A stretch of DNA of 41,516 nt from Rubellimicrobium sp. GTDB taxonomy: Bacteria; Pseudomonadota; Alphaproteobacteria; Rhodobacterales; Rhodobacteraceae. The notes beneath the pieces were generated by a model. That model saw nothing but the letters and a program-made list of their open reading frames with translations. It was not told the DNA's origin and did no database searches. The translations under genes and the position numbers were made by a program. Shown one piece after another: positions 29,765-34,721 of the stretch (positions are counted from its first letter, which is position 1; the number at the start of each line of letters is the position of its first letter). The stretch spans positions 1 to 41,516 of the forward strand of contig JAFIEN010000002.1 of NCBI GenBank assembly GCA_020832515.1, given 5' to 3'.

Positions 29765-30460
29765 TCAGTCCGGCGCCAGCATGTAGCCCTCGCCGCGGAC
29801 CGTCTGAAGATAGCGCGGCTGGCGCGGGTCGGATTCGATCTTTCGCCGCAGCCGGGTGATCTGCACATCCACCGCGCGCTCCTGCGCCTGCCCGCCGCCC
29901 CGGCCCAGCTCCTCGACCAGACGGGTCCGGGTGAAGGCCTCGCCCGGACGGCCGGCGAAGATCCGCATCAGATGGCTCTCGGTCGCCGTCAGCCGCACCA
30001 GCGCATCGCCCTGCCACATCTCGCCCCGCTCGATATCGTAGCGCACGGGGCCAAGATGCAGGACCTTGGGCACCACGACCGTTGGTTCGGCCGGGGGGGC
30101 GCGGCGCAGGATCGCGTTGATCCGCAGCAGCAACTCGCGCGGCTCGAAGGGTTTGGGCAGGTAGTCATCCGCCCCGGCCTCAAGTCCGGCGATCCTGTCC
30201 TGCGCCTCGCCCCGGGCTGTCAGCAGCAGGATCGGCACCGAGGTCTTGCCCCGCAAGTCGCGGCAGAGCGAGATCCCGTCCTCGCCCGGCATCATCACAT
30301 CGACGATCAGCAGATCGAACTCCAGCCCGGCAAGAAGCCTGCGCGCATGCGCGGCATCGCGCCCGGTCGTCACCAGAAAGCCTGCGCGCGCAAGAAACTT
30401 CTGAAGCAGGGTCCGGATGCGCTCGTCGTCATCGACGACCAGTAGATGTGGGGCCTCCAT
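29765..30460 (-). CDS. petR: OmpR-family response regulator PetR
   Basis: A 231-residue two-component regulator. The receiver domain has acidic D10/D11, phosphoacceptor D54 (LLIVDVMMP) and K103 (YLPKPFEP). The C-terminal winged helix spans about 135-231. Together with the MarR-type gene four bases upstream and the divergent ilvE, it matches the petP-petR pair of Rhodobacter, where PetR is needed for respiratory and photosynthetic growth. No histidine kinase gene is nearby and the cytochrome bc1 genes are not in the window. The ATG at 30460 gives the usual length. Confidence 0.88.
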   Translation of the reverse strand: MEAPHLLVVDDDERIRTLLQKFLARAGFLVTTGRDAAHARRLLAGLEFDLLIVDVMMPGEDGISLCRDLRGKTSVPILLLTARGEAQDRIAGLEAGADDYLPKPFEPRELLLRINAILRRAPPAEPTVVVPKVLHLGPVRYDIERGEMWQGDALVRLTATESHLMRIFAGRPGEAFTRTRLVEELGRGGGQAQERAVDVQITRLRRKIESDPRQPRYLQTVRGEGYMLAPD

Positions 30461-30464
30461 TCCG

Positions 30465-30974
30465 TCAGCGCCCCTTTCCGTCGCGCAGTCCCTCGTACTG
30501 GCGGCGGATATCGTCATCCATCATCGCCTCGAGCACCTTGCGAAAGCCCGCCACCGCCTCGGACCCGGCAGCCCGATATGCCGCCCGCATCCTGTCGCGC
30601 TGGGCATCCGAAAGCGACCGTTCAAGCGCCTCGCCAGCGGACGTCAGGAACAGGTGCCGCTCGCGCTTGTCCACCCGGCCCACTTCCGAGCGGACAAGGC
30701 CGTCTTCCATCAGGCTGCGCAGCACCCGGTTGAGCGACTGCTTGGTGACGCCCAGGATCGACAACAGGTTGTTGACCGTGGTGCCCGGGCTACGGTTGAC
30801 GAAATGCAGCGCACGGTGATGCGCGCGGCCATAGCCCTTTTCATGCAGGATCCGGTCGGGATCGGCCGTGAAGCCGCGATAGGCAAAGAACATTGCCTCG
30901 ATCCCCTTGCGAAGTTGTTCGTCGGTCAGGAAAAGAAGCGCCTCGCCGCTTTGCGATGCTGGTCCGTCGGCCAT
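30465..30974 (-). CDS. petP: MarR-family regulator PetP
   Basis: A 169-residue winged-helix regulator (recognition region TVNNLLSILGVTKQSLNRVL, then the wing VDKRERHLFLT). It precedes petR with a four-base gap, and context identifies it as PetP. The ATG at 30974 follows GGGAGG. A palindrome in its own promoter suggests autoregulation. Confidence 0.88.
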   Translation of the reverse strand: MADGPASQSGEALLFLTDEQLRKGIEAMFFAYRGFTADPDRILHEKGYGRAHHRALHFVNRSPGTTVNNLLSILGVTKQSLNRVLRSLMEDGLVRSEVGRVDKRERHLFLTSAGEALERSLSDAQRDRMRAAYRAAGSEAVAGFRKVLEAMMDDDIRRQYEGLRDGKGR

Positions 30975-30998
30975 GATCGGGATCCTCCCCTCGGGACG

Positions 30999-31027
30999 AC
31001 AATATGTCAGCCTTGTTGACATTCCAA
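30999..31027 (-). promoter_or_regulatory. petP promoter with operator in the spacer
   Basis: On the minus strand, TTGGAA (31022-31027) and TATTGT (30999-31004) are separated by exactly 17 bases. Those 17 bases are the inverted repeat TGTCAACAAGGCTGACA, a MarR-like operator. A bound dimer would cover the space between -35 and -10. Confidence 0.65.
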
Positions 31028-31044
31028 GACTCAACTGCTAGCGA
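31016..31044 (+). promoter_or_regulatory. Possible ilvE promoter overlapping the operator
   Basis: TTGACA (31016-31021) is followed after 17 bases by TAGCGA (31039-31044), a weak -10. The -35 overlaps the right half of the palindrome at 31004-31022, so one regulator could affect both directions. Confidence 0.4.
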
Positions 31045-31067
31045 ACCCTCGATTTCGCGCAACATTG

Positions 31068-31082
31068 TGTCCAAAGCTGACA
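31068..31082. promoter_or_regulatory. Second TGTC-N7-GACA site
   Basis: TGTCCAAAGCTGACA has the same half-sites as the operator at 31004-31022 and lies 38 bases before the ilvE ATG. It may be a second, weaker site for the same regulator. Confidence 0.4.
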
Positions 31083-31119
31083 TTTCCGCGAAACGAATGC
31101 AAATCCGGAGGAGGATTCC

Positions 31120-31989
31120 ATGGCAGGCGCTTACGATGATCGGGACGGCAAGATCTGGATGGACGGGGCGCTGGTGGAATGGCGCGATGCCAAGGTCCAT
31201 ATTCTGACCCATGCCATGCATTATGCGTCAAGCGTGTTCGAGGGCGAACGTTGCTACAATGGCCGCATCTTCAAGTCGCGCGAACATTCCGAGCGTCTGC
31301 ATTTCTCGGCCAGCTGCCTCGATTTCGAGATCCCCTATTCGGTCGATGAACTCGAGGCCGGGAAAGCCGCGGTCCTGGCGGCCAACGGCCTGACCGACGC
31401 CTATGTCCGCGCCATCGCATGGCGCGGCGCGGGCGAGGATATGGGTGTGTCCGCCCGCCGCAATCCGGTGCGCACGGCCATCGCCGTCTGGGGCTGGGGC
31501 AATTACTATGGCGATGCCAAGACCAAGGGCGCCAAGCTCGACATTGCCCGCTGGAAACGCCCCTCGCCCGAGACGATCCCGCATCAGGCCAAGGCAGCGG
31601 GCCTTTACATGATCTGCACCATGTCCAAGCACGAGGCCGAGGCCAAGGGCTGTTCCGACGCGATGATGTTCGACTATCGCGGCTATATCGCCGAGGCGAC
31701 GGGGGCCAACATCTTCTTCGTCAAGGATGGCGAGGTGCATACGCCCAAGCCGGACTGCTTCCTCAACGGTATCACCCGGCAGACGGTCGTGGGCATGCTG
31801 CGCGACATGCAGATCAAGGTCCACGAACGTCACATCATGCCGGATGAGCTTGAAAGCTTCGAACAGTGCTGGCTGACCGGCACCGCCGCCGAGGTGACGC
31901 CGGTGGGCCAGATCGGCGACTACAATTTTGAGGTGGGCAAGCTGACACTTGACGTGGCCGAAGCCTATGAAAGGCTGGTCCGGGCCTGA
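31120..31989 (+). CDS. ilvE: Branched-chain amino acid aminotransferase
   Basis: A 289-residue class-IV PLP aminotransferase that interconverts leucine, isoleucine and valine with their keto acids. Family markers include HYASSVFEGERCY, the EATGANIFFVKDG segment and the C-terminal GTAAEVTPVGQIG. The ATG at 31120 follows a strong GGAGGAGG site. It is divergent from petP-petR. Confidence 0.93.
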   Translation: MAGAYDDRDGKIWMDGALVEWRDAKVHILTHAMHYASSVFEGERCYNGRIFKSREHSERLHFSASCLDFEIPYSVDELEAGKAAVLAANGLTDAYVRAIAWRGAGEDMGVSARRNPVRTAIAVWGWGNYYGDAKTKGAKLDIARWKRPSPETIPHQAKAAGLYMICTMSKHEAEAKGCSDAMMFDYRGYIAEATGANIFFVKDGEVHTPKPDCFLNGITRQTVVGMLRDMQIKVHERHIMPDELESFEQCWLTGTAAEVTPVGQIGDYNFEVGKLTLDVAEAYERLVRA

Positions 31990-32182: not shown

Positions 32183-32887
32183 ATGACCCAACCGCGTGGG
32201 GCAAGTACCCGAAACGACCGCAAGGCCAACGCCGAACGGCGCAGGCGGCAATTGCTGGATGCGGCGCGCCGGTCGATCCTGCGTCATGGGCTGGCCCGCA
32301 CGACGCTTGCGACGGTTGCCGAAGAGGCCGGGCTGTCGCAGGGCATCGCCGTATTCTACTTCAAGTCCAAGGCCGGCCTTCTGACCGAGACGCTGCGCGA
32401 TCTGCATGAAGGCTACCAGGCCCACTGGATCCGCGCCCTCGACGCGGCAGGCCCGTCGCCGCGTGACCGCATCACCGCCCTGATCGACGCCGATTTCGCG
32501 CCCGAGGCCTGCGGGCCCGAGGTCCTGCCGCTCTGGTTCGCCTTCTGGGGCGAGTCGCAGTTTTCAAGCACCTATGCCGAGGTCGATGCCGAATATGATG
32601 TATACAGGCGGGCTGTGCATGCCCGGATCTGGGCCGAACTTCTGCCCCATCGCAGCCCCGAGGCGGTCGTCGAACTTGCCGAATGGGTCGAGATGCTGAT
32701 CGACGGCTACTGGCACCGGCTGCAACTTTCGGCGGGACGGCAGGACACGGCGCATGCCCGTGCCGCGACATGGTCCTGTCTTGTGCGGCTGGTGCCCGAG
32801 TTGGATCACCCCGGCTTTTGCGGACAGGCCAGCGCAGAGATGCGCGACCTGTCCGGCCAGGCCCGCCGATCAAACCCCGTCAAGTAA
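32183..32887 (+). CDS. TetR-family regulator, BetI-like
   Basis: A 234-residue regulator. The N-terminal helix-turn-helix (TLATVAEEAGLSQGIAVFYFKSK) and the LPLWFAFWGESQ ligand-domain segment resemble BetI, the choline-responsive repressor. No choline oxidation genes are adjacent; instead an amine oxidase follows 56 bases downstream, which may be its target. True BetI function is therefore not assured. Confidence 0.87.
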   Translation: MTQPRGASTRNDRKANAERRRRQLLDAARRSILRHGLARTTLATVAEEAGLSQGIAVFYFKSKAGLLTETLRDLHEGYQAHWIRALDAAGPSPRDRITALIDADFAPEACGPEVLPLWFAFWGESQFSSTYAEVDAEYDVYRRAVHARIWAELLPHRSPEAVVELAEWVEMLIDGYWHRLQLSAGRQDTAHARAATWSCLVRLVPELDHPGFCGQASAEMRDLSGQARRSNPVK

Positions 32888-32943: not shown

Positions 32944-34266
32944 ATGACTGACGAGGTCGATGTCATCGTGGTGGGGGCCGGGGTCGCCGGCCTGTCCGCC
33001 GCGACGGAACTGGGTCGGCTGGGGCTGACCTGCGCTGTGATCGAGGCGGCTGACCGCATCGGCGGCCGGGCCCACACCCGGGAGATCGCCCCCGGCGTCT
33101 GGTTCGATCTTGGCTGTGCCTGGCTGGTCGATGGCGAGGCCAATCCCTTCACCCGGATCGCCGACAGGCTTGGCATCCCGCTGGTGCGCGACAGGAAGGC
33201 CGATTTCACCCTTGCCCGGCATCGCTTTCACCGCAACGGCGCGGCGCTGTCGCCCGAGGATCGCCGTGCCTGCCTTGCCTATTTCGACGCCTGCGAACGC
33301 GCCATCGCGCAGGCCGCCGATGCCGGCCGCGATATCGCGGTGGCGCAGGTCGTGGACACCGACACCCCCTTCGCGACGCCCTTCAAGGGCTATCTCGGCG
33401 CGGCCTGGGGGCAGGATATCGACCTGATCTCGACCGTCGATTACGCCTCGTCCGAGGGCAGCAACGATTATCGCCTGCTGTCGGGCCTGGGCAATCTGGT
33501 GGCGACCTGGGCAAAAGGCATCGACGTCCGGCTGAATGCGCCTGCGCGCCGGATCGACTGGTCGGGTGGCGGACCGGGCAAGGCGGTCACGGTGGAAACC
33601 CCGCAAGGCACGCTGGCGGGGCGGCACGTGCTGATCACCGTCTCGACCGGCCTGCTGGCGTCGGGCGAGATAAGCTTCACCCCCGATCTGCCCGACTGGA
33701 AGCTGGCCGCCGTCGAGGGGCTTCCGATGGGAACCGAGAACAAGGTCGGCCTGCATTTTGACCGCGATGTCTTTGGCCCCGAGGGGCGGGCCTATTACAC
33801 CTCATGGGCCGATGGCGCGGTCCCGGCCAAGGTCGATGCCGGGGTCGTCGGGCAGGACATGGCCGTCGTCCTGTTCGGCGGGCGCCACGCCGTCGCACTC
33901 GAACAGGAGGGTCCCGCGGCGCTGGGCGCCTTCGCGCTGGATCGCGTGGCCGACATCTTCGGGGCCAACATCCGCCGCCACCTGACCCGCGCCTTCCCCA
34001 CTGCCTGGAGCACCGATCGCTGGACCCTTGGATCATGGTCCTGCGCGGCCCCCGGTCAGGCGCATCAGCGCGCAGCCCTTGCCCGCCCCGTCGACGAGCG
34101 CCTGTTCTTTGCCGGCGAGGCGACAAGTATCGGCGGGCAGGGCACCTGTCATGGTGCCTTCGCCACGGGTGTCCGCGCCGCGCAAGAAATCGCCTCGCTT
34201 CGGCAGGACGGGCGTGACGCGGCCCCCCCGGCGGCCGCCGTGCCAGAGGACGGCCGCCCCGGCTAG
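32944..34266 (+). CDS. FAD-dependent amine oxidase family protein
   Basis: A 440-residue flavoprotein. The N-terminal dinucleotide motif is GAGVAGLSAA, followed by EAADRIGGRAHT. The C-terminal FAD-closing motif is LFFAGEATSIGGQGTCHGAF. This is the monoamine/polyamine oxidase fold; the substrate is not determined. The ATG at 32944 follows GGGAGGG. It probably forms an operon with the BetI-like regulator. Its TAG stop shares the palindrome CTAG with the stop of the convergent lrp-type gene. Confidence 0.9.
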   Translation: MTDEVDVIVVGAGVAGLSAATELGRLGLTCAVIEAADRIGGRAHTREIAPGVWFDLGCAWLVDGEANPFTRIADRLGIPLVRDRKADFTLARHRFHRNGAALSPEDRRACLAYFDACERAIAQAADAGRDIAVAQVVDTDTPFATPFKGYLGAAWGQDIDLISTVDYASSEGSNDYRLLSGLGNLVATWAKGIDVRLNAPARRIDWSGGGPGKAVTVETPQGTLAGRHVLITVSTGLLASGEISFTPDLPDWKLAAVEGLPMGTENKVGLHFDRDVFGPEGRAYYTSWADGAVPAKVDAGVVGQDMAVVLFGGRHAVALEQEGPAALGAFALDRVADIFGANIRRHLTRAFPTAWSTDRWTLGSWSCAAPGQAHQRAALARPVDERLFFAGEATSIGGQGTCHGAFATGVRAAQEIASLRQDGRDAAPPAAAVPEDGRPG

Positions 34267-34721
34267 ATCGGCAGCGCAGTCGTCTGCCGCACGGTCCTGA
34301 GCGCAAAGGACGACTGGATCTGTGCGATCCCCGGAAGCGTGGCCAGCGCGCGCCGGTGGATGCGGGCAAAATCCTCGGTGTCGCGGGCCACGACCTTGAG
34401 CAGATAGTCCGCCGATCCAGCCATCAGGTGGCATTCCAGCACTTCCGGCACGCGCGAGACCGCCTTCTCGAATGCGTCAAGCACCTCGTCCGCCTGACCG
34501 CTCAGCGTGATCTCGACGAAGACGGTGGTCTGCCTGCCCAGCTTGCGCGGGTCGAGCAAGGCGACATAGCCACTGATGTATCCTGTCGCCTCGAGGCGCT
34601 GCACGCGGCGGTGACAGGCGGATTGCGACAGATGCACCTCCTCGGACAGTTCGGCATTCGAGATGCGCCCCCGCTTCTGCAGCGTCTCGAGGATGCGCCG
34701 GTCGATGCTGTCAAGTTCCAT
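34263..34721 (-). CDS. Lrp/AsnC-family regulator
   Basis: A 152-residue regulator with an N-terminal helix-turn-helix (LDSIDRRILETLQKRGRISNAELSEEVHLSQSA) and a C-terminal RAM ligand-binding domain. Divergent placement next to alanine dehydrogenase (134-base gap) is the classical arrangement of an AldR-type activator. Its 3' end overlaps the amine oxidase gene by four bases. Confidence 0.93.
   Translation of the reverse strand: MELDSIDRRILETLQKRGRISNAELSEEVHLSQSACHRRVQRLEATGYISGYVALLDPRKLGRQTTVFVEITLSGQADEVLDAFEKAVSRVPEVLECHLMAGSADYLLKVVARDTEDFARIHRRALATLPGIAQIQSSFALRTVRQTTALPI

Follow-up and report, generated by a model that had tools for sequence, protein, structure and literature searches.

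A conserved palindrome between petP and ilvE, a predicted operator of the MarR-family regulator PetP in Alphaproteobacteria

The petP-ilvE intergenic region

The window, that is, the whole 41,516-nt stretch of Rubellimicrobium sp. DNA analyzed here (contig JAFIEN010000002.1), carries petP and petR divergent from ilvE (Table 1). The petP ATG is at position 30974 on the minus strand, after the sequence GAGGGGAGG. Farther along, downstream of ilvE, the window encodes a BetI-like TetR regulator (32183-32887, plus strand), a flavin amine oxidase (32944-34266, plus strand), and an Lrp/AsnC regulator (34263-34721, minus strand).

A sequence-only reading of this DNA had placed a 17-base palindrome exactly between TTGGAA and TATTGT and noted that it overlaps a possible −35 element of ilvE; all of these coordinates were confirmed. 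On the minus strand, TTGGAA (31027-31022), TGTCAACAAGGCTGACA (31021-31005), and TATTGT (31004-30999) abut exactly, giving a spacer of 17 bp. On the plus strand, TTGACA (31016-31021) is followed by a 17-bp spacer and TAGCGA (31039-31044), with a TG at 31036-31037, and the whole of this candidate −35 is contained in the right arm of the dyad. The dyad is imperfect. Its arms, TGTCA and TGACA, are extended by one inner pair, and a conserved non-complementary G/T pair lies beside the arms; the conserved core is GTCA-N7-TGAC, whereas the outermost T/A varies. A second palindromic sequence, TGTCCAAAGCTGACA (31068-31082), is separated from the dyad by 46 bases. Each of the two palindrome patterns occurs once in the window, where shuffled sequences are expected to yield 0.41 and 0.44 occurrences, and the palindrome match by itself is not significant. 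With about 0.4 matches expected per window, the sequence alone is weak proof, and the significance of the site rests on its conservation. In the 4.18-Mb genome (88% complete), the site in the window is the only match with three or fewer mismatches to TATGTCARCNNNGYTGACATA, the 21-base class consensus.

Table 1. Genes and predicted regulatory features of the petP-ilvE region (window coordinates)
Feature	Position	Strand	Remarks
petR, OmpR-type response regulator	29765-30460	−	Internal ATG assumed as start
petP, MarR-family regulator	30465-30974	−	Pfam MarR_2 above gathering score, E 2e-12
petP Shine-Dalgarno sequence, GAGGGGAGG	30984-30992	−	Sequence reading
petP −10, TATTGT	30999-31004	−	TAWWNT in 89/114 family sequences
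Operator A, proposed PetP site, TGTCAGCCTTGTTGACA on plus strand	31005-31021		Class-wide dyad reaches 31003-31023
ilvE −35, TTGACA, within operator right arm	31016-31021	+	TTGAC in 114/114 family sequences
petP −35, TTGGAA	31022-31027	−	99/114 family sequences
ilvE extended −10, TG-C-TAGCGA	31036-31044	+	17-bp spacing; TA in nearly all family sequences
Element B, predicted ilvE leader, contains TGTCCAAAGCTGACA (31068-31082)	31055-31104	+	Family consensus
ilvE, branched-chain amino acid aminotransferase	31120-31989	+	NCBIfam NF005726 above cut-off

Conservation of the palindrome and its association with petP

Within the window's family, the survey covered the best 30 petP loci, each from a different genus. 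ilvE adjoins petP divergently in 29 of them, and all 29 carry a recognizable element. Base-level conservation was read from 114 distinct family sequences, which were selected for a site within three mismatches, so that the figures describe site-bearing loci. In these, GTCAG and TTGAC are 96 to 100% invariant, TTGGAA and TAWWNT are found at exactly 17 bp around the operator in 80 sequences, and the ilvE −10 reads TAGCGA or TATCGA in 74. The predicted promoter-operator-promoter arrangement is a trait of the window's family.

The site itself extends much farther. The sequence-only reading had proposed looking for the same palindrome before petP in relatives, and it was found class-wide, with a site of three or fewer mismatches upstream of ilvE in 108 of 118 petP loci across Alphaproteobacteria. 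In a class survey of 80 petP loci, mostly from different alphaproteobacterial families, 68 had a site a short distance upstream of petP that deviated at no more than 3 of 14 informative positions. This site was almost always between petP and ilvE. Control stretches of the same length reached three mismatches in five cases and were never better. The two genes are divergent in nearly all class loci; seven petP loci adjoining ilvE were without a good site. Operator A reads TATGTCARC-NNN-GYTGACATA, and the consensus outside the window's family is TTTATGTCAGCCATGTTGACATATT. The surroundings of the site differ outside the family: TTGGAA is absent around it, and CAT, the petP start codon read on the plus strand, lies inside it in 58 of 71 sequences. 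In the window's family, the petP start codon appears to have been shifted away from the operator, with a petP promoter built around the latter.

This difference bears on the possibility that the regulator acts as MerR does, by activating from within the petP spacer through realignment of the −35 and −10 elements. The operator does lie exactly between these two elements. However, MerR promoters have spacers of 19 to 20 bp, whereas the petP spacer, at 17 bp, is already optimal; PetP is a MarR_2 protein and not a MerR protein; and in loci outside the window's family it is the start codon that the site covers. With a 17-bp spacer and a MarR fold, a MerR-type spacer operator was rejected, and such a mechanism is barely conceivable here.

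It must also be asked whether there is an operator at all. Two independent constraints could have produced the palindrome as a by-product: the ilvE −35 TTGACA would account for the right arm, and either the petP promoter or the opening codons of petP (M-A/T-D-I) for the left arm. In favor of this, the ilvE −35 and the right arm do coincide, and in loci outside the family petP codons 2 to 4 lie in the left arm. Several findings argue against this explanation. First, the codons in the left arm are locked to particular synonyms, most of them rare ones: alanine is GCT in 35/35 (background in ilvE from these loci, 7.8%), threonine is ACT in 14/14 (background, 5.8%), aspartate is GAC in 55/55, and isoleucine is ATA in 29 (background, 4.5%). 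Second, the left arm is non-coding in the window's family and yet is as invariant there as stated above. The fixed synonymous codons and the non-coding arm together rule out coding constraint as the cause of the palindrome. Third, genomes without petP retain the promoter and lose the left arm. A good example of this is seen in four petP-less loci (L280, L288, L289, and L293), which keep a TTGAC-N17-TA ilvE promoter but have no left arm. Counting against the operator reading, a search of the dyad for compensatory substitutions at positions 7/11 found none. From this pattern of conservation, a mere by-product is highly improbable, and the palindrome is almost certainly a real operator.

Further comparison showed that the site follows petP. 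None of 32 genomes with an ilvE orthologue but without recognizable petP, many of them small or incomplete, has a site with three or fewer mismatches, compared to the 108 of 118 above (Fisher p ~3e-24, phylogeny ignored). In 25 of these 32 genomes petR stays divergent beside ilvE without the site, which means that the site follows petP and not petR or ilvE. One locus looks like an intermediate state of this loss: in G063 (L271, contig C13), petP was not found, petR is directly divergent from ilvE, and a decayed operator, CGACAGTCATGTTGACT, remains.

The same comparison weighs on the identity of the binder. PetR is encoded together with petP, and it, or an unlinked factor, could occupy the site instead of PetP. 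OmpR-type regulators usually bind direct repeats, whereas the near-symmetric dyad suits a MarR dimer. PetR is ruled out by the petP-less genomes that retain petR beside ilvE without the site, and for an unlinked factor the loss of the site together with petP would be unexpected. A binder other than PetP is therefore very unlikely. The proposal that PetP is the likely binder is supported by the conservation of the site with petP, and on these comparative grounds PetP is very probably the protein that binds the palindrome.

Loci in which the gene arrangement has changed are also informative. In one genome (L306, G205:C12:27304-31000), petP-petR is kept, and the threshold applied in the search gave no ilvE of this type; the operator there is a perfect dyad, TATGTCAG-TAATT-CTGACATA, with 8-bp arms, in which TTGAC became CTGAC. 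This suggests a compromise at the usual non-complementary inner pair, with the right arm presumably having to serve the operator and at the same time provide TTGAC for the polymerase as part of the −35. Two observations run against the association with petP. In another locus (L323, G034:C1:3577500-3581500), an insertion of ~1.5 kb parts petP from ilvE, and the operator is found at ilvE and not at petP. No recognizable site was found in three other genomes with petP and no ilvE (G071, G062, and G313). Paralogues of petP away from ilvE (L310 in G141:C2; L307 to L309 in G069, G198, and G296) have no good operator upstream and may use other sites.

The second element, downstream of the predicted ilvE start

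The TGTC-N7-GACA sequence at 31068-31082 had been taken for a second PetP site, and this does not hold. At this position relatives show TGTCCG-NNN-CGGAC and not the operator A consensus, and a second PetP operator was rejected on this ground. In 103 family loci the motif is TTATGTCCG-NNN-CGGACNTAA, with GCGCAA repeats on its flanks that are spaced by roughly three helical turns, and in 94 of these loci the motif lies 61 bp from operator A. The whole array, TTTTGCGCAAC..TTATGTCCG-NNN-CGGACNTAA..GCGCAA..TTTGCAAA, here called element B, lies at a constant distance from operator A in the family of the window and is downstream of the predicted ilvE start; loci read from outside the family showed no evident counterpart. 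The copy in the window, TGTCCAAAGCTGACA, has diverged, and its resemblance to operator A is due to chance. A pair of TTGCGCAA occurs at ilvE in 4 of the 5 genomes hit, which share no second target. Element B has no match in Rfam, and its pairs are nearly invariant, so that an RNA hairpin and a DNA dyad are not separable. It is perhaps an Lrp/AsnC-type array.

Predicted control of petPR and ilvE by PetP

As dimers, MarR proteins typically recognize palindromic sequences in the promoters of their own genes, and these promoters are often divergent (PMC5487221). Three features of such a divergent operator are found here: a winged-helix MarR protein is encoded next to the site, the palindrome lies in the predicted promoter of that gene and is conserved with the regulator, and the predicted target gene, ilvE, is divergent. 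Furthermore, the recognition helix stretch TKQSL.RVL is invariant in 7 of 7 diverse aligned PetP proteins, paralleling the invariant operator. Taken as a whole, the explanation that PetP, encoded just downstream, uses the palindrome as its operator is judged highly likely.

In the predicted mechanism, a PetP dimer would bind the dyad and keep RNA polymerase off both promoters. At petPR, where the center of the site is near −21 of the start predicted at about 30992 on the minus strand, this would amount to negative autoregulation; at ilvE, where the center is near −38 of the start predicted at about 31051 on the plus strand and the −35 would be covered, it would amount to co-repression. PetP would be freed from the operator by a ligand, for which a branched-chain amino or keto acid is one possibility. 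The sequence-only reading had predicted that PetP regulates its own gene, with cross-talk to ilvE. The autoregulatory part is strongly supported by the comparative data, and autorepression of petP is likely; control of ilvE is also likely, and its repression by PetP is somewhat favored. Alternatively, PetP could repress itself and activate ilvE. Class II activators are centered at −41.5, and a center near −38 is close to that position. Some MarR proteins do activate, for example, LdtR (PMC3999280). However, at ilvE the −35 hexamer itself is covered, which is the usual position of a repressor, and TTGACA is already a consensus −35. Activation of ilvE is therefore unlikely, and repression of both promoters by PetP is the preferred reading.

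A wider PetP regulon was not apparent, with one site within three mismatches in this genome. Secondary matches inspected in relatives (L031, L032, L034, L038, L042, and L048) have no consistent neighbor. One of them, L048 (G027:C14:104395-104409), is an exact operator-like match, GTCAGTATTATTGAC, near the start of a PLP-dependent aminotransferase-like ORF; no consistent recurrence was seen, and the match is possibly due to chance.

Among known systems, the closest in layout is HucR-uricase of Deinococcus radiodurans (PMC5487221), in which a MarR-family gene is likewise divergent from a metabolic gene with a single palindrome between them. The petP locus differs in having ilvE as the partner, petR downstream of petP, and class-wide conservation of the site. 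LdtR of Liberibacter asiaticus (PMC3999280, PMC5481520) is, like PetP, an alphaproteobacterial MarR protein, and it binds its own promoter; in contrast, it has a large regulon and activates ldtP from upstream of the −35. Its motif, ATATTCCTTGTATTTTAA, is unrelated to operator A, and an LdtR-type operator was rejected for that reason. PetP and PetR of Rhodobacter capsulatus (Tokito and Daldal 1992, cited in PMC9603854) are presumed orthologues; the comparison covered gene order, in which a MarR-type gene precedes an OmpR-type response regulator. R. capsulatus petR was originally reported upstream of the bc1 operon, whereas the neighbor here is ilvE. A full-text literature search that covered little of the subscription literature returned no description of a PetP operator or of a petP-ilvE link. 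The MarR-type switch is familiar, but the petP-ilvE site and the link to amino acid metabolism appear to be undescribed. For a divergent MarR autoregulatory operator, the predicted site is unusually conserved, and it is notable for the depth of this conservation and for its pairing with ilvE.

These results provide a precise candidate operator for a MarR regulator whose distribution spans Alphaproteobacteria and whose most conserved neighbor is ilvE. With this neighbor, branched-chain amino acid metabolites become candidate ligands, and the pairing suggests that amino acid status is linked to the petR operon. A broader scenario, which we consider speculative and rather doubtful in its entirety, is that PetP is a class-wide, single-target sensor of branched-chain amino or keto acids, with one operator tying ilvE to petPR and thus to PetR, a respiratory regulator; the operator would, in Rhodobacteraceae, have been rewired from the petP start codon to the promoter spacer, and ilvE would have gained element B as a second, independent control array. 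The apparent move of the start codon in Rhodobacteraceae, together with the new promoter that encloses the operator there, would offer a clean case of regulatory rewiring under a fixed operator.
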